From Longimicrobium sp. (GTDB lineage Bacteria > Gemmatimonadota > Gemmatimonadetes > Longimicrobiales > Longimicrobiaceae), in NCBI RefSeq assembly GCF_035474595.1, contig NZ_DATIND010000070.1:1-64000 (forward strand): a stretch of DNA of 64,000 nucleotides, in the 5' to 3' direction. This document shows positions 897-45,286 of the stretch, piece after piece. Under the pieces are notes generated by a model. That model was not told the DNA's origin. It ran no database searches and was given only the letters and a program-made list of their open reading frames with translations. Position 1 is the first letter of the stretch. The number at the start of each line of letters is the position of its first letter. The position numbers and the translations under genes were made by a program.

Positions 897-1061
897 TCAG
901 AAGCAGCGCGGCTGCGCCGTCAGGCACTGGAGGATGCAGGTGGTCCCCGAGCACACCGGCGTGGCCTCGGCCCCGCGCGCGACGGCGGTTCCGTGCCCGG
1001 CCGGCCCGGTGGGGAACGACACCACGCGCACGGCCTCGATGTCCAGCTTGATCTTCTTCAT
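897..1061 (-). CDS. Pinensin-type RiPP (lanthipeptide-like) precursor, 54 aa, orphan
   Basis: A short minus-strand ORF starting MKKIKLDIEAVRVVSFPT, which reproduces the leader signature (K-K-x-x-L-D-x-E-x-x-x-V-x-S-F) of the peptide array at 12.97-14.87 kb. A GTAVARGAEA segment corresponds to the second conserved leader box, and the core carries Cys at 37, 42, 46 and 53 among Ser/Thr. The upstream sequence on this strand contains a purine-rich GGAGAT before the ATG. It sits alone between zapA and rny, transcribed against both. Leader and Cys/Thr/Ser core are seen; RiPP processing is inferred. No modification enzyme is nearby. Confidence 0.8.
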   Translation of the reverse strand: MKKIKLDIEAVRVVSFPTGPAGHGTAVARGAEATPVCSGTTCILQCLTAQPRCF

Positions 1062-8927: not shown

Positions 8928-9116
8928 ATGAGAACGCAGCTCGAGGAAGCGAAGCACGACGAGGAAGCCTTTGTGCCTGATCCCGAGATCGTAGCGGTAA
9001 TGGCGGCGCGGGGAGTGACGGTCAAGACCGGGGCGTTCAAACCGCGGGATTTTCCGCTGCGGAAGCGCCCTGCGTGGCTGGCATTCCTCATCCGCCTCAC
9101 CAGGCATCTGAGATGA
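8928..9116 (+). CDS. Putative antitoxin of a VapBC-like pair
   Basis: 62 aa, preceded by CAGGAGGTATGG, a strong ribosome-binding site. It overlaps the PIN-domain toxin by four bases (ATGA, 9113-9116), the coupling typical of type II toxin-antitoxin operons. No standard DNA-binding fold (AbrB, RHH, Phd) is recognisable. The C-terminal RKRPAWLAFLIRLTRHLR may be the toxin-binding helix. The antitoxin role is inferred from gene order. Confidence 0.78.
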   Translation: MRTQLEEAKHDEEAFVPDPEIVAVMAARGVTVKTGAFKPRDFPLRKRPAWLAFLIRLTRHLR

Positions 9117-9595
9117 TCTTTCTCGACGCCAGCGCCATGGTGAAGGTGTATGTCACGGAACAGGGATCCAGTACGCTCAAGGGCGTATTGGCGCGGATGC
9201 GGGGAAAGTTGTTCCTCTCACCGCACGTAATCATCGAGGTGCTCAGCACGTTCGCGAAGCAGCACCGGTCCGACGTCATCACGAAGACCCTTTATCGGAA
9301 GGCTCGGTCGGGCTTTCTCAACGACATCGGGGAGACGTACACGGTCATGGAAGTGGGCGCTCCGGTGTTCTGGTCCGCCTACGACCTGGTGGATCGGCAT
9401 CGCCAGTTCAGCGTGGGTGCGCTGGACGTTCTGCATGTGGCCTCTGCACTGAAGCTTCAGGCGTCGTTTCGGCGCAAGACCGTCGTCCTTGCGACGGCCG
9501 ACCGCGGATTGCTCAGCCTGGCGCGGGCTGCGGGGGTAAAAACGTTCAATCCCGTGCTCGATCCCCTCGCGGTGCTGCTCGCATCCGTGAACTGA
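9113..9595 (+). CDS. PIN-domain ribonuclease toxin (VapC-like)
   Basis: 160 aa with the acidic PIN active site: MIFLDASAMVKVYVTEQG (Asp5), an E in SPHVIIEVLS (~43), ALDVLHVASALKLQ (Asp ~104) and LATADRGLLSLARAAG (Asp ~129). VapC toxins cleave tRNA or rRNA. Here type II toxin identity follows from the PIN motifs plus the overlapping upstream antitoxin. The region has slightly lower GC than its neighbours, consistent with an acquired module. Confidence 0.9.
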   Translation: MIFLDASAMVKVYVTEQGSSTLKGVLARMRGKLFLSPHVIIEVLSTFAKQHRSDVITKTLYRKARSGFLNDIGETYTVMEVGAPVFWSAYDLVDRHRQFSVGALDVLHVASALKLQASFRRKTVVLATADRGLLSLARAAGVKTFNPVLDPLAVLLASVN

Positions 9596-12918: not shown

Positions 12919-12954
12919 AAAACGGCCCGGGCGCTCGGAGCGTCCGGGCCGTTT
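12919..12954 (-). terminator. Terminator of the RiPP precursor array
   Basis: AAACGGCCCGG-CGC and GCG-CCGGGCCGTTT pair, with A and T tracts on both sides. On the minus strand it follows the last precursor stop (12966) by 11 bp and ends in TTTTCGTG, so it fits a terminator of the array transcript. Confidence 0.85.
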
Positions 12955-12965
12955 CATCGCCCCCG

Positions 12966-13106
12966 TCAGCAGGTGCAGTACGGCGGCTTGGGGCACGAGG
13001 TGACCGCGCTCATCTTCGCCTCGCCGGCGGTCGGCGCGGACGCCGCGGCCGTGGTGGCGAAGGTCTCGATCCGGAGCGCCTCGGGGTCCAGCGTCTTCTT
13101 CGGCAT
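12966..13106 (-). CDS. Pinensin-type precursor peptide, array member 8 (last), 46 aa
   Basis: Starts MPKKTLDPEALRIETFATTA, keeping the leader pattern (L-D-x-E-x-L-x-x-E-T-F). The core is short, with Cys only in SCPKPPYCTC. It is the most reduced member and lacks the GTVxAxE leader box clearly present in the other array members. Last gene before the array terminator. The RiPP call rests on leader similarity and position. Confidence 0.78.
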   Translation of the reverse strand: MPKKTLDPEALRIETFATTAAASAPTAGEAKMSAVTSCPKPPYCTC

Positions 13107-13126
13107 CGCGTCCTCCCTTGCGGTGA

Positions 13127-13372
13127 TCAGGCGGTGGGGCAGCAGACCGACGCCTTGGGGCACCCCGACGGCAGGCAGTCGCACCACGGCCCGCCCGCGC
13201 ACGAGGTGGCGCAGGTGTCGCACGGGTCGTACGTGGGGTGGCAGGTGACCGGGCCCGCCGAGCAGATCTCGGTGGCCCCGGCGCCGCGCACGGTGCCCGC
13301 CGCCGCCCGCGCGGGCGCGGTGGCGAACGACTCCACGCCCAGCGAATCGACGTCCAGCCTCAGCTTCTTCAT
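13127..13372 (-). CDS. Pinensin-type precursor peptide, array member 7, 81 aa
   Basis: Leader MKKLRLDVDSLGVESFATAP is followed by the RGTV-like box (AGTVRGAGATE). The core has ten Cys, including DTCATSCAGGPWCDC and a C-terminal ASVCCPTA. The TC-x-TSC-x4-C-x-C pattern recurs across the array, so the Thr/Ser-Cys spacing could support lanthionine rings or disulfides. Intergenic distance to member 8 is 20 bp, implying one transcript. Confidence 0.85.
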   Translation of the reverse strand: MKKLRLDVDSLGVESFATAPARAAAGTVRGAGATEICSAGPVTCHPTYDPCDTCATSCAGGPWCDCLPSGCPKASVCCPTA

Positions 13373-13412
13373 GCGGCCTCCACGTGGGTGGGGGGAAACG
13401 CCGGCTGCGGGC

Positions 13413-13658
13413 TCACCACCCCACGCAGCAGCCGGCGGCCGTGGCGTGGGACGGGTCGCAGAAGCACACCCCGCTCCCCGTGCACGACAGCTGGCAGGTG
13501 CGCGCCTCGGGCCCGGTGGGCTTGCAGAGGCTCGGATCCAGCGTGCAGTCCAGCTCGGTGGGCTCGGCCGCGCCGACGGTTCCCTCGTCGGGCGGCGGCG
13601 GCGCCGCGGCGAACGACTCCACGTCGAGCGAGTCCAGGTCCAGCTTCAGCTTCTTCAC
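13413..13658 (-). CDS. Pinensin-type precursor peptide, array member 6, 81 aa
   Basis: GTG start at 13658 with AAAGGAGG 6 bp upstream on the minus strand; the frame is open further upstream but that extension lies past this ribosome-binding site. Leader VKKLKLDLDSLDVESFAAAP, then EGTVGAAEPTE. Core DCTLDPSLCK..., TCQLSCTGSGVCFC and a terminal AAGCCVGW. It parallels member 7 in length and in its terminal CC pair, so the two look like a duplication. Confidence 0.85.
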   Translation of the reverse strand: MKKLKLDLDSLDVESFAAAPPPPDEGTVGAAEPTELDCTLDPSLCKPTGPEARTCQLSCTGSGVCFCDPSHATAAGCCVGW

Positions 13659-13695
13659 GGCAGCCTCCTTTGCCGGCCGGCCAGGGCCGCGGGGG

Positions 13696-13896
13696 TCACA
13701 GGATGGGGCAGGTGCAGTGGCCGCCCGCACCCGCGCACGAGGTGAAGCAGGTGGCGCCGCCACAGGTGGCGCAGTTGCCGCCGGTGTTGGTGGGCGCCCA
13801 GTTGGCGTGCACCGTGCCCTGCGACTCGGCCGGCCGCTCGCCGGTGGGGAAGCTTTCCACGGAAAGCCCGTCGACGTTCAGGCGCATCTTGTTCAT
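13696..13896 (-). CDS. Pinensin-type precursor peptide, array member 5, 66 aa
   Basis: Leader MNKMRLNVDGLSVESFPTGE, then QGTVHANW. Core NCATCGGATCFTSCAGAGGH ending CTCPIL. The CxxCxxxxCxxSC...CTCP pattern is shared with members 3 and 4. Thirty-seven bp separate it from member 6. Confidence 0.87.
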   Translation of the reverse strand: MNKMRLNVDGLSVESFPTGERPAESQGTVHANWAPTNTGGNCATCGGATCFTSCAGAGGHCTCPIL

Positions 13897-13925
13897 CGGT
13901 TCCTCACGCCTTGAAAAGGTGTGTC

Positions 13926-14138
13926 CTACGCGACCGGACAGGTGCAGCCGGGGCCGCCGGGGATGCACGAGGTGAAGCAGCTCACCCCCGCGCAGGTGTA
14001 CCCGCCGCAGCTTCCGCACTGGTCCGTCTTCACGGTGAACTCGGCGGCCTCGACCGTGCCCTTCACCTGCTCGTCCCGCACCGTGGTGGGGAACGACTCC
14101 ACGGACAGGTCGTCGATTTCCAGCGACAGCTTTCTCAT
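13926..14138 (-). CDS. Pinensin-type precursor peptide, array member 4, 70 aa
   Basis: Leader MRKLSLEIDDLSVESFPTTV, then KGTVEAAEFT. Core CGSCGGYTCAGVSCFTSCIP then GGPGCTCPVA. Nearly the same core as member 3 (CGSCGGETCGGVSCFTSCIP), a recent duplicate with diverged leader sequence. Confidence 0.88.
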   Translation of the reverse strand: MRKLSLEIDDLSVESFPTTVRDEQVKGTVEAAEFTVKTDQCGSCGGYTCAGVSCFTSCIPGGPGCTCPVA

Positions 14139-14176
14139 TCGCTCAACTCGGGTGATGGGTGGACCGGCCGGGCTGC

Positions 14177-14410
14177 TCACACGCAGCGGCTGGTATCCTC
14201 GCCGACGGGGCAGGTGCAGAGCGGGCTCCCCGGGATGCACGACGTGAAGCAGCTCACGCCGCCGCAGGTTTCGCCGCCGCAGCTGCCGCACTCGGCGGTG
14301 TTGAGCGTCTTCTCGGCCGCGTCGACGGTGCCCCGCGCGTCGCCATCGGCGGCCGAGGTGGGGAACGACTCCACGCCGAGCTGGTCGAGCTGCAGCGACA
14401 GCTTCTTCAT
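14177..14410 (-). CDS. Pinensin-type precursor peptide, array member 3, 77 aa
   Basis: Leader MKKLSLQLDQLGVESFPTSA, then RGTVDAAEKT. Core CGSCGGETCGGVSCFTSCIP, then GSPLCTCPVGEDTSRCV, adding a C-terminal Cys absent from member 4. A GGAGGCGAGCG ribosome-binding region precedes the ATG on the minus strand. Confidence 0.88.
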   Translation of the reverse strand: MKKLSLQLDQLGVESFPTSAADGDARGTVDAAEKTLNTAECGSCGGETCGGVSCFTSCIPGSPLCTCPVGEDTSRCV

Positions 14411-14447
14411 CGCTCGCCTCCGGGGTGATGGGGATCCGGCCGCCCGC

Positions 14448-14642
14448 TCAACCCGCCGGCGGCGGGCAGGTGCAGTTGCCGACGCGGCCGCACGAGGTGC
14501 GGCAGGTGTCGCCGTTGGTGCAGTACAGCTCGTGCGTGGCCATCTCCGCCGCGCGGACGGTGCCGCGGAAGTGCGGCACCCCGGGCGCCACGGGAAAGGA
14601 TTCGACGGACAGCGATTCGGGATCGAGCGTGAGCTTGCGCAT
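14448..14642 (-). CDS. Pinensin-type precursor peptide, array member 2, 64 aa
   Basis: Leader MRKLTLDPESLSVESFPVAP, then RGTVRAAEMA. Core YCTNGDTCRTSCGRVGNCTC ending PPPAG. GGAGGTCCGCG precedes the ATG. It has four ring-forming-type Cys with Thr/Ser partners and a proline tail. Confidence 0.87.
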   Translation of the reverse strand: MRKLTLDPESLSVESFPVAPGVPHFRGTVRAAEMATHELYCTNGDTCRTSCGRVGNCTCPPPAG

Positions 14643-14671
14643 CGCGGACCTCCTCGGGGTTCGGGGTTTGG

Positions 14672-14869
14672 CTACGCGCGCGGCTCGCGGGCCGGGATGC
14701 AGGTGCAGTGGCCGCCGCCGCCGCACGACGTCTGGCAGGTGGCGCCGCAGGAAAGCTGGCCAATCGCGGTCGCCTCGTTCGCGGCGACGGTTCCGCGCCC
14801 CGACGGCCCGGCGGCGGTGGGGAACGAGGTCACCGCGAGCGCCTCCGGATCCAGCCGCATCTTCTTCAT
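14672..14869 (-). CDS. Pinensin-type precursor peptide, array member 1 (first), 65 aa
   Basis: Leader MKKMRLDPEALAVTSFPTAA, then GRGTVAANEAT. Core LSCGATCQTSCGGGGHCTCI then PAREPRA. AAGGCAGATGGCG precedes the ATG. It is the first gene of the eight-gene array; the hairpin at 14910-14943 lies just upstream, so its promoter would be between 14870 and 14909 or the array is reached by readthrough. Confidence 0.87.
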   Translation of the reverse strand: MKKMRLDPEALAVTSFPTAAGPSGRGTVAANEATAIGQLSCGATCQTSCGGGGHCTCIPAREPRA

Positions 14870-17406: not shown

Positions 17407-17550
17407 ATGAAGAAGCTGACGCTGGACCTCGACGCGCTGGCCGTGGAGACGTTCGCGACCCGGCCGGAGATCGAGGAAACCGCCTTCATCCAGGAGCTGA
17501 TCTCGCGGAAGAGCTGCATCGAGCAGTGCACCACGTCCTGCGTTCCCTGA
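17407..17550 (+). CDS. Pinensin-type precursor peptide, orphan, 47 aa, plus strand
   Basis: Leader MKKLTLDLDALAVETFATRP matches the array leaders. There is no GTVxAxE box; the core is ISRKSCIEQCTTSCVP, with three Cys and the shared TSC motif. CTGGAGGCGAGCC precedes the ATG. It is the only precursor on the plus strand. A palindromic repeat follows. Too short for most gene finders. Confidence 0.8.
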   Translation: MKKLTLDLDALAVETFATRPEIEETAFIQELISRKSCIEQCTTSCVP

Positions 17551-27548: not shown

Positions 27549-28697
27549 TCAGCCGCCCACGGCCTGCAGTCCGGCGAACCGGCGCACGCGGCGCGGGCGG
27601 TTGGCGGCGGGCACGCCCGAGGTGGCGCAGATCACCGCCACCAGCGTCTCGTCGGCGTAGTCCAGCCCCACGTACCCCTCGTGCGCCGCCACGCGCACCA
27701 GGTCGTGCCGCGTCTCGCGCGCGAACCCGAAGTCGGCGTACGGGGTGAAGCCGGCCCGGCGCAGCCGCGCCACCCAGCTCTCCACCGGCTCGTGGCGCTC
27801 GCAGCGCGTCTGCTCGCCGTTCGCCACGATGTCCTCGATCTCGCGGGCGAAGAACATCTTCATGGCCCCGGCCTCCTCGGGCGTCACGTCCAGCTGGTCG
27901 ATCAGCTTGAAGGTGATTCCGAAGTGGTGCCACGCCGCGTTGAAGCGCTCCACGAAGTCGGCGGCGTGGTGGTTGGAGCTGGGCTCGGCCAGCACCACCG
28001 CATCGGGGTCCAGCTCGCGGAGGCGCGCGAAGATGCGGTCGCGCAGGGTGTCGCCCTCGGTGCACTGGATGTGGTGCGCGGCGAACGAGGCGTTCACCAC
28101 CAGCGGGCACTCGAACGCCGACACCTCGCTCCAGTCGGCTTCGCTCATGTCCTCCACCACCTTGTGCATCGGCACGAACTCCAGCTCGATCCCCAGCTCC
28201 ACCGACACCTCGAACAGCGCCATCTGCGCCTCGATCAGGCTTCCCGCGTCGGGCTCGATGGCGATCACGTTCAGCCGCTTCGGCAGGCGGCCCTGTTGGC
28301 CCAGACGGCGGAGCATGGCCACCTCCTGGTGCCCCGAGCCGATGCCGATGTCCAGCAGCGTGACCTCGTCGTGGCCGCCCACGAAGCGCGCCAGCAGCTC
28401 GTTGGCCAGCGGCGCCGTGAGCGCCACCGTGGGCAGGTGCCGCGCGAGCAGGTTGAACAGCGAGATCTGCGTATCCTGGAACTGGCGGAGGTACAGGTTG
28501 ATCTCCTCCGCCAGCCCCGAAGCCAGCCGCCTGGTCAGCGCGCGGGCGAACAGGTAGAAGTGCAGGTCCTCCGCGCGGGCGCCCGCCTCCAGGTGGTCGC
28601 CGATGGCGCGGTCCAGCAGCGCGCGGGCGTTTCCGTCGCGGCCTGCGGCGCTCTCCTGGACGACCGCGAGCAGGGTGGCGTACTTGCGAGGATCCAT
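27549..28697 (-). CDS. Bacterial GRAS-family protein (Rossmann methyltransferase fold)
   Basis: 382 aa. Matches bacterial GRAS proteins related to plant GRAS regulators: N-terminal helical cap (LHFYLFARALTRRLASGLAE), a VHIID-like strand TLLDIGIGSGHQEVAMLRRL (~112), FVPMHKVVEDM, an NASFAAHHI segment equivalent to the PFYRE region, and a SAW-like end (RHEPVESWVARLRRAGFTPY, ~293). The family is thought to bind SAM or a small molecule; substrate unknown. AAGGAGGAACGG precedes ATG 28697. Single gene between its own promoter region and terminator. Confidence 0.85.
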   Translation of the reverse strand: MDPRKYATLLAVVQESAAGRDGNARALLDRAIGDHLEAGARAEDLHFYLFARALTRRLASGLAEEINLYLRQFQDTQISLFNLLARHLPTVALTAPLANELLARFVGGHDEVTLLDIGIGSGHQEVAMLRRLGQQGRLPKRLNVIAIEPDAGSLIEAQMALFEVSVELGIELEFVPMHKVVEDMSEADWSEVSAFECPLVVNASFAAHHIQCTEGDTLRDRIFARLRELDPDAVVLAEPSSNHHAADFVERFNAAWHHFGITFKLIDQLDVTPEEAGAMKMFFAREIEDIVANGEQTRCERHEPVESWVARLRRAGFTPYADFGFARETRHDLVRVAAHEGYVGLDYADETLVAVICATSGVPAANRPRRVRRFAGLQAVGG

Positions 28698-28891
28698 CCG
28701 TTCCTCCTTCAGAAGCGGAGCGTTCGCGTGGTCCGCACCGCGCGGGAGGGGCCCCGGCGAGCGCGGATAAGAGCCTTCGTTGCAACAGGGATTGGTGTGG
28801 CAGCAGCGCGGTAGGACCAGCTGGCCGGCACGGAACCCGGAAGTGCGGGCTGGGGTGCAAGCGCACCCATTCAGCCGCAACATCTGCGTAA

Positions 28892-28920
28892 ACAATAAAG
28901 ACAATGTACAAATTCCGCAA
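28892..28920 (-). promoter_or_regulatory. Candidate promoter of the GRAS gene
   Basis: On the minus strand TTGCGG-17 bp-TATTGT inside the A/T-rich stretch 28870-29130. The rest of the 28698-29226 gap contains no ORF I would support; the unusual A/T content suggests regulatory sequence or a remnant. Confidence 0.5.
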
Positions 28921-29173
28921 GTGTGTCTGTAACTGATTGTCAGAGCAAGCAGTGCGCTTTTTCTCCGGCCGCTGTGTATAACTATCGGACAGTGCCGTAG
29001 ATAGATCGATGGGTGCACCGGTTTACGAAACTGCTATTCTGCTACGAGTCGCGCTGCCTACTTCTACGTGCAACCATTTTTCACGACGATAAATGTTGAA
29101 TGATGGAAATCCTTCGCTACATGGTGATCCGGCGCTGGCGTAATGGGAGCGGTGGGGTGGCGGGACGCGGAAA

Positions 29174-32469: not shown

Positions 32470-32790
32470 TCACCCGACCTGGCATTTCACCGCGCTGTCG
32501 TCGATCCAGCAGACGTCGCCGCAGCTGTTGATGCGGGGATCGCACGTGTTGCGCGTGCAGCCGTACGTACAGTCCAGGTACTCGGTGTCCTTGCAGATGT
32601 TTATGCTCTCGCAGTTGTACTGCGACAGCGGCACGCAGACCATACACTCCGAAACGCCGGTGCCGGGTCCGATGATGGTGGTGCCCGGTGCCGCCTCGGC
32701 GCGGCCTGCCACGGTGCCGCGGACGCCCAGCGCGGAATGGGTGGTGGCGAACGACTCGACCTGCAGCGACTCCAGCTTGAGCTTGGGCAT
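32470..32790 (-). CDS. Pinensin-type precursor peptide, orphan, 106 aa (long core)
   Basis: Leader MPKLKLESLQVESFATTHSA (one residue shorter before the L-x-V-x-S-F box), then RGTVAGRAEA. The core is the longest here: eleven Cys, e.g. SECMVCVPLSQYNCESINIC, DCTYGCTRNTCDP, NSCGDVCWIDDSAVKCQVG. Composition differs from the array cores (Tyr, Asn, Ile-rich). An A/T-rich stretch with TTGCAT and TAATAT (32855-32880) upstream looks like its promoter. It has its own terminator, so it is an independent unit. Confidence 0.82.
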   Translation of the reverse strand: MPKLKLESLQVESFATTHSALGVRGTVAGRAEAAPGTTIIGPGTGVSECMVCVPLSQYNCESINICKDTEYLDCTYGCTRNTCDPRINSCGDVCWIDDSAVKCQVG

Positions 32791-40592: not shown

Positions 40593-42626
40593 TTACCAGA
40601 TCGTCACGCGGACGGAGTCGGCGCGCACCATCTCGTCGCCCTGCTTGCAGCCGAACGCGCGGGCGAACTCGGGCATGTTGCTGAGCGGCCCGTTCACGCG
40701 CCACCGGCTGGGCGAGTGCGGGTCGATGGTCACCAGCATCCGCGAGTACTCGGGGCGGCGCAGCTCCCGCCAGACGCGCGCCCACCCCAGGAAGAAGCGC
40801 TGCTCGGGGGTGAAGCCGTTGATGACGGTGCGCGGCTTTCCTTCCAGCGCCTTCTGCATGGCCGCGTAGGCGATGGTCAGCCCGCCCAGGTCGGCGATGT
40901 TCTCGCCGGCGGTGAGCTTGCCGTTCAGGTGCAGCGTGTCGACCGCGGTGTAGCCGCTGAACTGCGCCACGATGCGCTCGGCCTGCGCGTTGTAGCGCGC
41001 CGCGTCCTCGGCGGTCCACCAGTCGCGCAGGTTGCCGGCCGCGTCGTACTGCCGCCCCTCGTCGTCGAAGCCGTGCGTGGCCTCGTGCCCGATCACCGCG
41101 CCCATCGCCCCGTAGTTGGTGGCGTCGTCGGCGTTGGGGTCGAAGAACGGCGGCTGCAGGATCCCCGCGGGGAACACGATCTCGTTGTACGTGGGGTTGT
41201 AGTACGCGTTCACCGTGGGCGGCGTCATCCCCCATTCGCCGCGGTCCACCGGCCGCCCGATCTTCCCCAGCTCGCGCGAGTACTCGAAGGTGGTGGCGGC
41301 CATGGCGTTGGCCGCGAACGGCCCGTTCCGCACCTCGAGCGACGAGTAGTCGCGCCAGCGCTGCGGGTAGCCGATCTTCTGCTGGAATGCCGTGAGCTTG
41401 GACAGCGCCTGCTGCTTGGTGGCCTCGGACATCCACGACAGCTGGCGGATGCGCTCGCCCAGCGCCGCGCGCAGGTTGTTCACCATCTCGTCGGCGCGCG
41501 CCTTGGACTGCGGGGTGAAGGCGCGCTCCACGTACGCCTGCCCCAGCATCTCGCCCAGCCCGGCGTCGGCCTCGGCCAGGCACCGCTTCCAGCGCGGCTG
41601 CTGCTCGGTGGCGCCGGTGAAGCGCTTGCCGAACTCGAAGCTCTCGTTCACGAACGCCGACGACAGCCGCGACGCGTACGAATCGGCCAGCCGCCAGCGG
41701 TAGTACGCCTGCAGGTCGGCCACCGGCGTGCCCTGCACCACGCGCCCCGCGGCGGTGATGAAGTCGGGCTGGCGCACCAGCGCGCTGTCGACCGCGGGGA
41801 TGGCGGCCTCGCGCAGGTAGCCGGCCCAGTCGAAGCCGGGCGCCAGCGCGCGCACCTGCGCCATCGACAGCTTGTGGTAGATGGCGTTGGGGTCGCGCAT
41901 CTGCACCCGCTGCATGGACGCCTGCGCCAGCGCGGTCTCGATCGCCAGCACCTTGCGCGCGTCGGCCTGCGCCTGCGCCGGGCTCTCGCCCAGCAGCGCC
42001 AGCGTGCGCCCCACGTGCGCCACGTACTCGTTGCGCAGCGCCACCGAGGCCGAGTCGGTCTTCAGGTAGTAGTCGCGGTCCGGGAGCCCCAGCCCGCCCT
42101 GCCCCAGCTGCAGCACCACCCGGGTGGCGGCCTTGTCGTCGGGCCCGGCGCCCACCGAGAAGAGCGCGCCGGCACCCATGCGGCGCATGCGCCCGGCCTC
42201 GGCCGCCAGCGCGGCCGGCGTGCTCGCGGCGGCGATGCGCGCCAGCTCGGGGCGCAGCGGTGCCGTTCCCGCGGCCTCGATCGCCGCCGAGTCCATGCAG
42301 GTGGCGTAGTAGGTTCCCAGCTTGGCGTACGGGCTGGAGGCGTCGGCGCGGCGCGCGGCGGCGTCCTCGATCACCGTCTTCAGCACGCCCTCGTTGTGCT
42401 CCTGCAGCTCGTAGAAGCTTCCCCACGCGGGGTAGATAGAGGGGATCTGCGTGCTGTCCAGCCAGCGCTGGTTGGCGAAGGCGAAGAAGTCGCGGCACGC
42501 CAGGCCGGTGGTGTCGGCGCACATGACGTCGGACGCGCGGGCCACGGCGGGGGCGCGCACCGCCGCGGTGGTCGCGGCCGCTGCGGCGACCATCGCGGTC
42601 GCCAGCCCGAATCGGGTTCGGCTCAT
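40593..42626 (-). CDS. M13-family (neprilysin-like) metallopeptidase
   Basis: 677 aa, exported (N-terminal ~30 residues LATAMVAAAAATTAAVRAPA). Zinc motif GHEATHGFDDEGRQY (HExxH, ~512) and third ligand in GENIADLGGLTIAY (~572), with VNAYYNPTYNEIVFPAGILQ, the NAYY substrate-binding motif. C-terminal GCKQGDEMVRADSVRVTIW ends the catalytic domain. Likely periplasmic or extracellular oligopeptidase. The start is placed at the signal peptide; a longer open frame upstream is less likely. Confidence 0.93.
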   Translation of the reverse strand: MSRTRFGLATAMVAAAAATTAAVRAPAVARASDVMCADTTGLACRDFFAFANQRWLDSTQIPSIYPAWGSFYELQEHNEGVLKTVIEDAAARRADASSPYAKLGTYYATCMDSAAIEAAGTAPLRPELARIAAASTPAALAAEAGRMRRMGAGALFSVGAGPDDKAATRVVLQLGQGGLGLPDRDYYLKTDSASVALRNEYVAHVGRTLALLGESPAQAQADARKVLAIETALAQASMQRVQMRDPNAIYHKLSMAQVRALAPGFDWAGYLREAAIPAVDSALVRQPDFITAAGRVVQGTPVADLQAYYRWRLADSYASRLSSAFVNESFEFGKRFTGATEQQPRWKRCLAEADAGLGEMLGQAYVERAFTPQSKARADEMVNNLRAALGERIRQLSWMSEATKQQALSKLTAFQQKIGYPQRWRDYSSLEVRNGPFAANAMAATTFEYSRELGKIGRPVDRGEWGMTPPTVNAYYNPTYNEIVFPAGILQPPFFDPNADDATNYGAMGAVIGHEATHGFDDEGRQYDAAGNLRDWWTAEDAARYNAQAERIVAQFSGYTAVDTLHLNGKLTAGENIADLGGLTIAYAAMQKALEGKPRTVINGFTPEQRFFLGWARVWRELRRPEYSRMLVTIDPHSPSRWRVNGPLSNMPEFARAFGCKQGDEMVRADSVRVTIW

Positions 42627-42807
42627 CGTGAGATACTGGTTTAGGGGTCCGGAGGAATCCTGGTTCCCGTGTACATAGCGCGAGCCACGGAGTTCCGCCA
42701 GATGCGAATCTCCATACGCGTTTTGCTGTGCCGGACACAGCTGCATCCGGATGCTGTTATTGTTCAACATACGCGAGACGGGGCGAACCTCTTCCGCATG
42801 GAGCAAG

Positions 42808-43017
42808 ATGGACGATCTTCCGATGAACAATCACCCTGCCGTGAGCGAAGGAGATCCGATTCCCGTGCCCTTCGCAGGCCTGCAACGCGCGCTGGAGGAG
42901 GGACGTTTCGGTCTTGCTCCAGACACGGTTCGCATCCGGCGCTTCGTCCCCGGATGGCGCGCGAATGGCCCGCCAGCCGAGATACGCAAGGCGTTGATAC
43001 GTTATTTCGCCGAATAG
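42808..43017 (+). CDS. Small hypothetical protein, 69 aa
   Basis: MDDLPMNNHPAVSEGDPIPV, then LQRALEEGRFGLAPDTVRIR. Unknown family, soluble. Evidence that it is real: its TAG is the first base run of a perfect 18-bp hairpin (43017-43053), and the reading frame has normal GC3. No clear ribosome-binding site. The open frame continues upstream to 42751. Confidence 0.45.
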   Translation: MDDLPMNNHPAVSEGDPIPVPFAGLQRALEEGRFGLAPDTVRIRRFVPGWRANGPPAEIRKALIRYFAE

Positions 43018-43053
43018 AAGAGGCGGCGAGTGAATTTCACTCGCCGCCTCTTC
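43017..43053. terminator. Perfect 18-bp bidirectional terminator
   Basis: GAAGAGGCGGCGAGTGAA-t-TTCACTCGCCGCCTCTTC followed by TCATCATCTC. It separates the convergent small ORF and the M28 peptidase gene (stop at 43076). Confidence 0.8.
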
Positions 43054-43075
43054 TCATCATCTCTCCCGCTGACGA

Positions 43076-45178
43076 TCACCCGCCCAGCGCCCGCGTCGCC
43101 TCCCGCAGCGCGGCGGTGGCGGCGGCGAAGCGGCGCGCCAGGTCGGCCAGCTCGCTCTCGGCGAGCGGACGGTCGCCGTGGCGCGCGGCGTTGGCCACGC
43201 CGGGGAACACCATGTCGGAGTAGCCGTTGTCGGGGTCCGAGGCGTAGATCAGGTTGCGGAACCACTCGCGGTCCTTCAGCCCCTCCGGCCGCGTGAGCGC
43301 GCGCTCCACGCCCAGCAGCGCGCGGTTCGCCGCGTCGCGTCGCGCGGGGGCCAGCGCGCCGCCCGCCAGCGCCCGGTCGCGCGCCGTGGCAAAGTCGCGC
43401 GCCGCGGCCTCCATCGCGTCGACGGACGCGCGGAGCGGGGCGGTGCCGGCCGTGTCCCACCCCTTCGCCTTCAGCGCCTGCTCCAGGTCGGGAAGGTAGC
43501 CGCGCATGGTGCGCGCGTACTCGGCGTAGTCGTACGGCAGCACCTCGGCGTTGGCCAGGCGCAGCAGCAGGGCCGCGCCCACCGACGCCGCGGCCGCGTG
43601 GTAGCGGAAGCCGGGGTCGCCGAAGCGGCTCATCCACGCGTACGAGTCGTACTGCGAGTGGTACACGCCGCCCGGCCCGCCGAAGCCCCACTCGGCGATC
43701 GGAATCCCCAGGTGGTTGTAGAAGCCGGCGAAGTCCGACCCGCCGCCCGGGTTCCCCATCGCCACCTCGGCGGAATCGGGGAGATTGGTCCGCTTCCGCC
43801 ACACCTGGTACACGCTCCCGCCGCCGGACGGGTCGGGGACAAGGCCGGCCACGTCGCGCAGCAGCGCCCGCAGCGAGGGCGAGCCGCCGCCGTCGAACGC
43901 GCGTCCCTGCGCCGCCACGTCCTGGTTCAGGTAGGCCACGGCGCCGCGCATCAGCCGCGCCGAGTCCTCCTCCACGTACTCGGTCGAGCCCACCAGCCCC
44001 CACTCCTCCGCGTCCCATGTGGCGAAGACGATGGTGCGGCGCGGGCGGTTCCCGGCGCGCACCTGCTCCATCACCGCGCGGGCGGACTCCAGCACGCTGG
44101 TGGTGCCGCTCACGTTGTCGGCGGCGCCGGGGCCCCAGGCGTCGCGGTGGCCGCCCACCATCACGATCTCGTCGGGGAGCTCGCTTCCGCGGATGACGCC
44201 GAAGGTGTCCCAGATGTCCTTCATCGGCGATGTCCGCTCGTCCGTCTCCACCGCGATGCGGGCGACCACGGGGCCGGGGCCCACGTGGTAGCGGAAGGGA
44301 AGCCCGCCCTGCCACGCCTGCGGGACGGCGGTCCCCCGCACCCCGCGCAGCAGCTCCGCCGCGTTCGCGTACGACACGGGGATCACGGGGATGCGGGGGA
44401 TGTCCATCTCCGCGGGCGACAGGCGCCGGGCGTTGTCGGTGGACGGGTATCCGGGGGTGGACGGGTCGCCGTCGGAGTTCAGGATGCTGCCGCGCTGCAC
44501 CCCGCGCTCGGGGCGCATGGGCCCCTCGGGGTACACGTCGCCGCGCGCGAAGCCGTCGTCGGCCGGGTCGCTGTAGATGACCAGCCCCACCGCGCCGTGC
44601 CGCTCCGCCTCGCGCGCCTTGATCCCCCGGAAGCTCCGCCCGTAGCGCGCGACGGCGATCTTGCCGCGCACCGACACGCCGAGCGAGTCCAGCCGCGCGT
44701 AGTCCTCCACCAGCCCGTAGTTCACGTACACCACCTCGCCGCGAACGTCGCCCTGCGCGCTGGTGCCGTTCACCGTGGGGTACTGCGCGAGCACCGAGGT
44801 GCTGTCGCCGGGCACGGGCGGCTCGGCCAGCGCCAGCTCGCGCGCGTCGGGGGAGATGCGCCAGAGGTGGACGGCGGTGGCGTGCGGCAGCCACACGCGG
44901 TAGTGGCGCACCTCCGTCTCCAGCCCCATCCGCCGCATTTCGCCGATCACGTAGTCGCGGGTGCGCGCCTGCGCGGGGGTGCCCGCCACGTGCGTCTCGG
45001 CCGAGAGCGCGCGCGAGTGCGCCGACGCCCGCTCCGGCGAGGTGGCGGCGATGGCGGCGGCCTCCACCCGGCGCTCGCGGGCGGCCGCGTCGGCCGAGTA
45101 GCCCGGCATCGCCTGCTGGGCATGGAGAAGGGAGACGGACGCCAGCAGCGCCGCCGGAACGACCAGGCGAACGAGCAC
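43076..45178 (-). CDS. M28-family peptidase, PSMA/glutamate carboxypeptidase II-like
   Basis: ~700 aa, exported. Signal peptide LVRLVVPAALLASVSLLHAQ. A PA domain (~130-300; SVRGKIAVARYGRSFRGIKA) is inserted before the M28 catalytic core: GGHRDAWGPGAADNVSGTTS (His/Asp ligands, ~343), TWDAEEWGLVGSTEYVEE (Glu base and ligand, ~385), VYHSQYDSYAWMSRFGDPGF. C-terminal helical dimerisation domain follows (~570-700). GTG 45178 is preferred because it puts the signal peptide at the terminus; ATG 45226 is in frame 16 codons upstream. Confidence 0.92.
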   Translation of the reverse strand: MLVRLVVPAALLASVSLLHAQQAMPGYSADAAARERRVEAAAIAATSPERASAHSRALSAETHVAGTPAQARTRDYVIGEMRRMGLETEVRHYRVWLPHATAVHLWRISPDARELALAEPPVPGDSTSVLAQYPTVNGTSAQGDVRGEVVYVNYGLVEDYARLDSLGVSVRGKIAVARYGRSFRGIKAREAERHGAVGLVIYSDPADDGFARGDVYPEGPMRPERGVQRGSILNSDGDPSTPGYPSTDNARRLSPAEMDIPRIPVIPVSYANAAELLRGVRGTAVPQAWQGGLPFRYHVGPGPVVARIAVETDERTSPMKDIWDTFGVIRGSELPDEIVMVGGHRDAWGPGAADNVSGTTSVLESARAVMEQVRAGNRPRRTIVFATWDAEEWGLVGSTEYVEEDSARLMRGAVAYLNQDVAAQGRAFDGGGSPSLRALLRDVAGLVPDPSGGGSVYQVWRKRTNLPDSAEVAMGNPGGGSDFAGFYNHLGIPIAEWGFGGPGGVYHSQYDSYAWMSRFGDPGFRYHAAAASVGAALLLRLANAEVLPYDYAEYARTMRGYLPDLEQALKAKGWDTAGTAPLRASVDAMEAAARDFATARDRALAGGALAPARRDAANRALLGVERALTRPEGLKDREWFRNLIYASDPDNGYSDMVFPGVANAARHGDRPLAESELADLARRFAAATAALREATRALGG

Positions 45179-45286
45179 GGGCAACCCTCGCGTTTCGGGG
45201 GAGATGATGATGGGACTGGCGGGCAAACTACGCGTCGCACGACGAGCGGACCAGCGGGGGAGGGAATCGGAGGAGCGACGATCGAT

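Follow-up and report, generated by a model that had tools for sequence, protein, structure and literature searches.

Pinensins, the class I lanthipeptides of Chitinophaga pinensis, are among the described systems closest to a tandem array of eight small genes in Longimicrobium sp. The array lies in the window, which is the whole 64,000-nucleotide stretch of contig NZ_DATIND010000070.1 (C70) analysed here. Like the pinensin precursors, the array genes carry a characteristic leader pattern that includes a GTV box; the match of NF038180, the leader_pinensin model of NCBIfam, spans this box. The likeness extends to the enzymes: LanB is split into a glutamylation protein and an elimination protein (PMC7268733), it is accompanied by LanC, and Cys is joined in the N-terminal direction (PMC13060382). 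Different from pinensins, which consist of two components (PMC13060382) and have two methyllanthionine rings, the genome studied here has at least 150 precursors with up to 17 Cys per core, most of the genes are distant from the enzymes and the array falls below the leader cut-off. The leader type itself is already known, as NCBI's model shows.

The prochlorosins and synechococsins of marine picocyanobacteria resemble the present system in that scattered precursors far outnumber the enzymes, a single promiscuous enzyme set serves them and a conserved leader is combined with diverse cores; ProcM has 29 substrates and SyncM has 79 putative ones (PMC10783134). However, these are class II systems with LanM and a Nif11-type leader, whereas the present system is of class I, with split LanB and LanC; its leader is unrelated, its precursors number at least 150 and its cores have many more Cys. 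Enzymes of the ProcM clade cyclise in both directions (PMC13060382), whereas the cores described here suit upstream-only pairing. Class I systems of Bacteroidota with LxLxKx5L leaders also combine LanB/LanC with a non-FxLD leader (PMC7268733); they often have a Gly-Gly leader end and a C39 protease in the cluster, whereas the leaders described here lack Gly-Gly and the ABC transporter of the cluster lacks a C39 domain. The cultured species Longimicrobium terrae has a genome of 6.9 Mb with 69.4% GC, and three lanthipeptide clusters are reported for it (PMC7291104). In text searches of the literature, we found no paper linking class I lanthipeptides to Gemmatimonadota, nor, among the papers listed, one reporting such a precursor expansion.

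Our analysis indicates, with a probability of about 0.85, that the products of the array are precursors of class I lanthipeptides and that a single promiscuous set of split LanB and LanC matures them in trans. We hold this reading at that level because genomic lines of evidence that are independent in kind agree. An earlier note on the window had described pinensin-like precursors of ribosomally synthesised and post-translationally modified peptides (RiPPs), probably lanthipeptides, matured in trans; the leader model, the enzymes encoded on contig C23 and the tracking of LanB across genomes all support this description.

Organization of the precursor array

All eight small open reading frames (ORFs) that the earlier note had placed on the minus strand are present. 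They run consecutively from 14869 to 12966, are separated by gaps of 20–40 bp and encode products of 46–81 aa. The features of the array are as follows.

14672..14869, minus strand: m1 precursor, 65 aa; leader, GTV box and core with 5 Cys and 6 Ser/Thr
14448..14642, minus strand: m2 precursor, 64 aa, 5 core Cys
14177..14410, minus strand: m3 precursor, 77 aa, 8 core Cys; NF038180 score 17.5 bits (cut-off 24)
13926..14138, minus strand: m4 precursor, 70 aa, 7 core Cys; NF038180 score 17.6 bits
13696..13896, minus strand: m5 precursor, 66 aa, 6 core Cys
13413..13658, minus strand: m6 precursor, 81 aa, GTG start, 8 core Cys
13127..13372, minus strand: m7 precursor, 81 aa, 10 core Cys
12966..13106, minus strand: m8 precursor, 46 aa, short core TSCPKPPYCTC, without GTV box
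12920..12954, minus strand: 3' hairpin, probable intrinsic terminator, with 11-bp arms, an inner 4-bp stem and a short T run

The arms of the strong hairpin downstream of m8 (12954–12944 and 12930–12920; folding z = −2.87) fit the clear terminator reported before. A simple terminator scan missed it because the loop exceeds the length allowed by that scan. A promoter scan across the array found none, and an Rfam search gave no match. The GC content at third codon positions (GC3) is 0.91–0.98 in all eight ORFs, in a genome of 6.6 Mb and 70% GC, and Shine-Dalgarno-like GGAGG or GAGG precedes most of them.

The leader is about 28 residues in length and follows the pattern MKKLxLDxxxLxVESF ... RGTV. 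Alignment of the eight members gave nine invariant columns, including leader positions L6, L11 and F16 as well as the final Cys-x-Cys. A GTVxAxE box had been reported in all members but m8; GTV itself does occur in seven of the eight, but the full box is found in only five (m5 reads GTVHANW and m7 GTVRGAG). The cores had also been said to diverge much faster than the leaders. Within the array this does not hold, with mean identities of 0.50 for cores and 0.56 for leaders; genome-wide it does (0.35 for cores without Cys, 0.52 for leaders), and between orthologues the conservation of the cores equals that of the leaders. A Pfam search of the eight members matched no family.

A large and dispersed precursor family

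Homologues with the same leader, which the earlier note had called for beyond the array, are plentiful in the own genome and in nine relatives. In the own genome, a model built from the eight matched at least 150 places (all 150 scored of 427 candidates), and the leader model at E ≤ 1e-4 likewise gave at least 150 members; 151 distinct members were read across all the DNA examined. When 746 kb of own-genome DNA was searched with the leader model, 133 members were found; the same search of a reversed-sequence decoy gave no hit. For a second count, contig numbers were used to choose 40 stretches beforehand; these held 24 members in 598 kb, which corresponds to an estimated 264 per genome (bootstrap 86–500). 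A hidden Markov model search with NF038180, as the earlier note had proposed, matched 99 places in the own genome at E ≤ 1, 19 of them above cut-off; none was above cut-off in 14 control genomes.

The own-genome members are spread over at least 53 loci, 25 of which are single genes, while the rest are arrays of two to nine. Beside the orphan arrays no enzyme family recurs; the recurrent neighbours are generic genes, shared contig stretches and generic families such as ABC transporter. Three further single precursors lie in the window.

897..1061, minus strand: 54 aa, leader-family match
17407..17550, plus strand: 47 aa, without GTV box
32470..32790, minus strand: 106 aa; its leader (32707–32784) is above the NF038180 cut-off, with 24.7 bits

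Split LanB, LanC and exporter on another contig

A profile search found no LanB, LanC, LanM or LanKC on C70. A split LanB, a LanC and an exporter, for which the earlier note had suggested a search, are encoded elsewhere in the genome: contig C23 carries, all in one direction, a LanB glutamylation domain, a LanB elimination protein, a LanC, six same-leader precursors, an ABC transporter and HlyD. The two LanB parts, PF04738 (ORF 17704–16214) and PF14028 (ORF 16233–15193), are in trans to the array. LanC (PF05147) retains the metal-site motifs WCHG and LCHG together with a YAHG motif. The exporter had been suggested to be of the C39/PCAT type, but the ABC transporter of C23 shows no C39 domain. 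Within the own genome only the C23 precursors adjoin these enzymes; the array does not.

The end of contig C4 holds a second LanB glutamylation piece, 86% identical to that of C23 over 163 aa, and both pieces group with the same gene of the related genome G008; either a single gene is represented twice or there are two close copies of it. The own genome has PF14028 only once, and one stand-alone LanC was found. Of the other three LanC domains, two are part of LanM proteins and one is part of a RamC-like LanKC, so three lanthipeptide classes coexist in this genome.

L097 7240–10371, L098 300–3545 and L099 5598–8408 (own C25, C136 and C87): LanM-type (two) and RamC/LanKC-type (one) synthetases

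The order LanB_N–LanB_C–LanC recurs in relatives with same-leader precursors alongside. Such precursors also stand beside LanB/LanC in G008:C103, G015:C200, G014:C234, G009:C6 and G006:C30; a scan of the named genomes for LanB_C gave only four loci.

Some cluster-adjacent precursors are of unusual form. Two on C23 (L041 11237–11398 and 11440–11592) share the leader but not the GTV box, and their cores, MPKQKLNLDTLAVESF... and MPTQKLNIEALTVETF..., are very short; an orthologue of one of them is found in G008:C103. The LanB-adjacent precursors at L146 9654–10094 (G008) and L151 13003–13335 (G006) differ from the dispersed members in that their cores consist of long C-x-x-C repeats (CSNCSGCTGCSNC...). 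Own contig C11 carries a distinct system for peptide export (L100 4887–11283), where a C39-peptidase ABC transporter locus accompanies six tandem small peptides that are almost Cys-free and share a different Gly-Gly leader, MSRLESLSSDxFQPL...GG.

Cys and Ser/Thr in the precursor cores

The residue to which LanC links a Cys is usually a dehydrated Ser/Thr on its N-terminal side, pinensins included (PMC13060382). Cys makes up 14.2% of the core residues and 0.1% of the leader residues. None of the 136 cores examined has fewer Ser plus Thr than Cys; in pooled shuffles, this was true of 101 cores on average and of 112 at most. When Cys and partner had to be at least three residues apart, an own upstream Ser/Thr could be assigned to 831 of 856 Cys (97.1%); the corresponding number was 653 (sd 14) in within-core shuffles and 699 (sd 9, maximum 725) in doublet-preserving shuffles. 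Downstream pairing reached 624 Cys, lower than its shuffles. The same contrasts were seen in 132 independent cores of relatives, 95.3% of whose Cys were upstream-paired. Among more than 300 residue sets of like frequency, Ser/Thr was beaten only by its own supersets, also when the spacer before the first Cys was trimmed. In the array itself, every Cys could be matched in six of the seven GTV-bearing members and nine of ten in m7.

We considered an artefact from TC dipeptides or from the Cys-free spacer behind the leader and rejected it: the signal survived doublet-preserving shuffles, the gap of at least three residues, trimmed cores and the other residue sets. As indirect evidence, this directional and specific pattern fits LanC chemistry.

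Precursors track LanB across genomes

Precursors were found in 10 of 41 genomes, which are exactly the 10 with LanB_N above cut-off, and in none of the 31 others. Their counts in the ten genomes are at least 150, at least 143, 12, 1, 16, at least 150, 78, 67, 47 and 5. With relatedness ignored, the chance of such agreement is 1/C(41,10), or 1 in 1.1 billion, and within the 21 genomes of the bacterial family it is 1 in 352,716; PF14028 picks the same ten. In three same-genus genomes, a LanC domain is present but both LanB and precursors are missing. Since genomes with a LanC domain and no LanB have no precursors, LanM-type enzymes do not appear to be the partner.

Of the eight genomes of the main LanB clade, seven have at least 16 precursors and one has 12. 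In G006 and G020, which possess only a divergent LanB, there are 1 and 5, respectively; G020 is just 61% complete. The sole precursor found in G006 adjoins its LanB, and this genome looks like an unexpanded state. Between species of a single genus, the family ranges from 1 to at least 150 members.

Conservation of the array and its cores

A collinear orthologous array, with the gene order nearly kept, is located on G008:C20; part of the subfamily is also found in G001. The locus on G008:C20 (L217 1388–11453) holds 24 precursors in about 10 kb and unites orthologues of the own C70 and C80 arrays. The orthologues of the array members are as follows.

G008:C20 8597–8782: m1 orthologue
G008:C20 8818–9012: m2 orthologue, core identity 85%
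G008:C20 9695–9907: m4 orthologue, core identity 90%, leader identity 57%
G008:C20 9045–9254: m5 orthologue, core identity 81%
G008:C20 9911–10156: m7 orthologue, core identity 87%

The short m8 type is present in three copies in G008:C20 (9517, 10171 and 10349) and in one copy in G001:C75. Because the short type recurs in both genomes, m8 is a conserved subtype, not a decayed gene or fragment. Orthologues of the HD-GYP gene adjoining the array occur in G008, G015 and G002, none with an array alongside, and synteny stops at the HD-GYP gene on both sides.

Over 52 reciprocal pairs, the ratio of nonsynonymous to synonymous substitution rates (dN/dS) amounts to 0.53 for the leaders and 0.51 for the cores. 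These values come from unfiltered pairs; filtering by core identity gave 0.40 in cores, a biased value that was set aside. Between orthologues, 96% of the core Cys are conserved, compared to 63% of the remaining core residues. Judged by these ratios, the orthologous cores are under purifying selection. The paralogues differ widely but the orthologues are held, which suggests many distinct maintained products, not a decaying reserve.

Weighing the explanations

Several points weigh against maturation by one split LanB/LanC set. The LanB genes of both C4 and C23 run off their contig ends, so the enzyme set is not whole in this assembly; it is whole in G008:C103. A dedicated leader protease for the precursors was not found in our search. 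The co-occurrence counts take no account of shared ancestry. On NF038180, which was built independently of this genome's array and has a curated cut-off of 24 bits, all array members score below the cut-off: m4 reaches 17.6, m3 17.5 and m6 10.4 bits, and the other five are unmatched, although m3 and m4 still have an E of 0.003 against 18,950 models. Because the curated cut-off is missed, we do not file the eight as formal pinensins and have dropped the label of family member; 'pinensin-type', as read from the sequences, denotes a likeness of the leader and of the enzyme arrangement, short of formal membership. Finally, the two LanM and the RamC-like LanKC of this genome could modify some members, and one precursor lies about 4.5 kb beyond the C25 LanM. 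In a rival reading, the precursors are modified in trans by another enzyme altogether, either the own LanM/LanKC or a radical-SAM or YcaO enzyme beyond the scope of our searches. We regard that as unlikely: G003, G004, G005 and several other genomes of the same order encode LanC-domain proteins without LanB and have no precursors, whereas in six genomes same-leader precursors adjoin the split LanB/LanC, the orphan arrays have no other recurrent neighbour, and upstream-only Ser/Thr pairing suits LanC.

The array and most of the dispersed copies might instead be a silent or decaying reserve left by runaway duplication, with few members expressed or modified. The very high copy number, the single genes that make up about half of the sampled loci, the varying gene number within one genus and the lack of a promoter in the scan all speak for it. 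However, a dN/dS of about 0.5 in leader and core and the retention of core Cys between species are not what decay would leave, and the frames are intact, with the GC3 of real genes, ribosome sites and a collinear array in G008; a reserve of this kind is quite improbable. Very improbable, in our view, is that the peptides contain no thioethers and are secreted Cys-rich products, disulfide-bonded or metal-binding, with the leader as an export or chaperone signal. Cores of 14% Cys and the exporter genes of the C23 cluster would suit such products, but the precursors are strictly tied to LanB across genomes and the cores offer each Cys an upstream Ser/Thr of its own. Disulfides moreover favour even Cys numbers, whereas the GTV-bearing members m1–m7 have 5, 5, 8, 7, 6, 8 and 10.

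Proposed pathway and its significance

The precursor family, its gene number, the enzyme genes, the co-occurrence, the constraint on the cores and the purifying selection are established by the analysis. For expression, enzyme-substrate pairing, ring formation, export and function, we infer the following course under trans maturation by the split LanB/LanC set. The eight array genes would form one transcription unit. The leader of about 28 residues would be read by the LanB dehydratase; the split LanB encoded on C23, with part of a LanB also on C4, would dehydrate Ser/Thr of the core, and the C23 LanC would join every Cys to a dehydrated residue upstream. A protease would remove the leader, and the ABC/HlyD exporter of the C23 cluster probably exports the products. 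Serving all the dispersed precursors, of which there are at least 150, one enzyme set would turn them into a library of multi-ring peptides, for which competition with other microbes would be the most plausible role.

A broader proposal is probable but held less firmly: a single split LanB/LanC set would mature at least 150, perhaps about 260, precursors per cell. No natural family of lanthipeptide substrates would be larger, and it would be the first class I combinatorial system of the prochlorosin kind, its arrays reaching 24 genes, its cores 17 Cys and its whole repertoire following an upstream-Ser/Thr rule. If true, this Gemmatimonadota lineage possesses several hundred multi-ring peptides as a natural library, all made by one class I dehydratase/cyclase set, and no larger precursor set would be known for this enzyme class. 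The extreme substrate tolerance so far known from the class II enzymes ProcM and SyncM would then have arisen independently in LanB/LanC. The family would also provide a large natural data set on the core sequences that LanB/LanC accept, as well as untested peptides to draw on. Mining that starts from clusters would miss most of these genes because they are far from any enzyme.

Other genes of the window

The window had been described as lacking a protease. In fact, adjacent M13 and M28 family peptidases are encoded at 40596–45226 on the minus strand; they are apparently unrelated to the array, and nothing ties them to it. At 8928–9592 on the plus strand there is a PIN-domain (VapC-like) protein, and the small ORF directly upstream is a possible antitoxin. 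The GRAS family is best known for plant transcription factors; here a bacterial GRAS-domain protein (PF03514, E 4e-38) is encoded at 27552–29018 on the minus strand, beside PaaA/PaaC-like genes.

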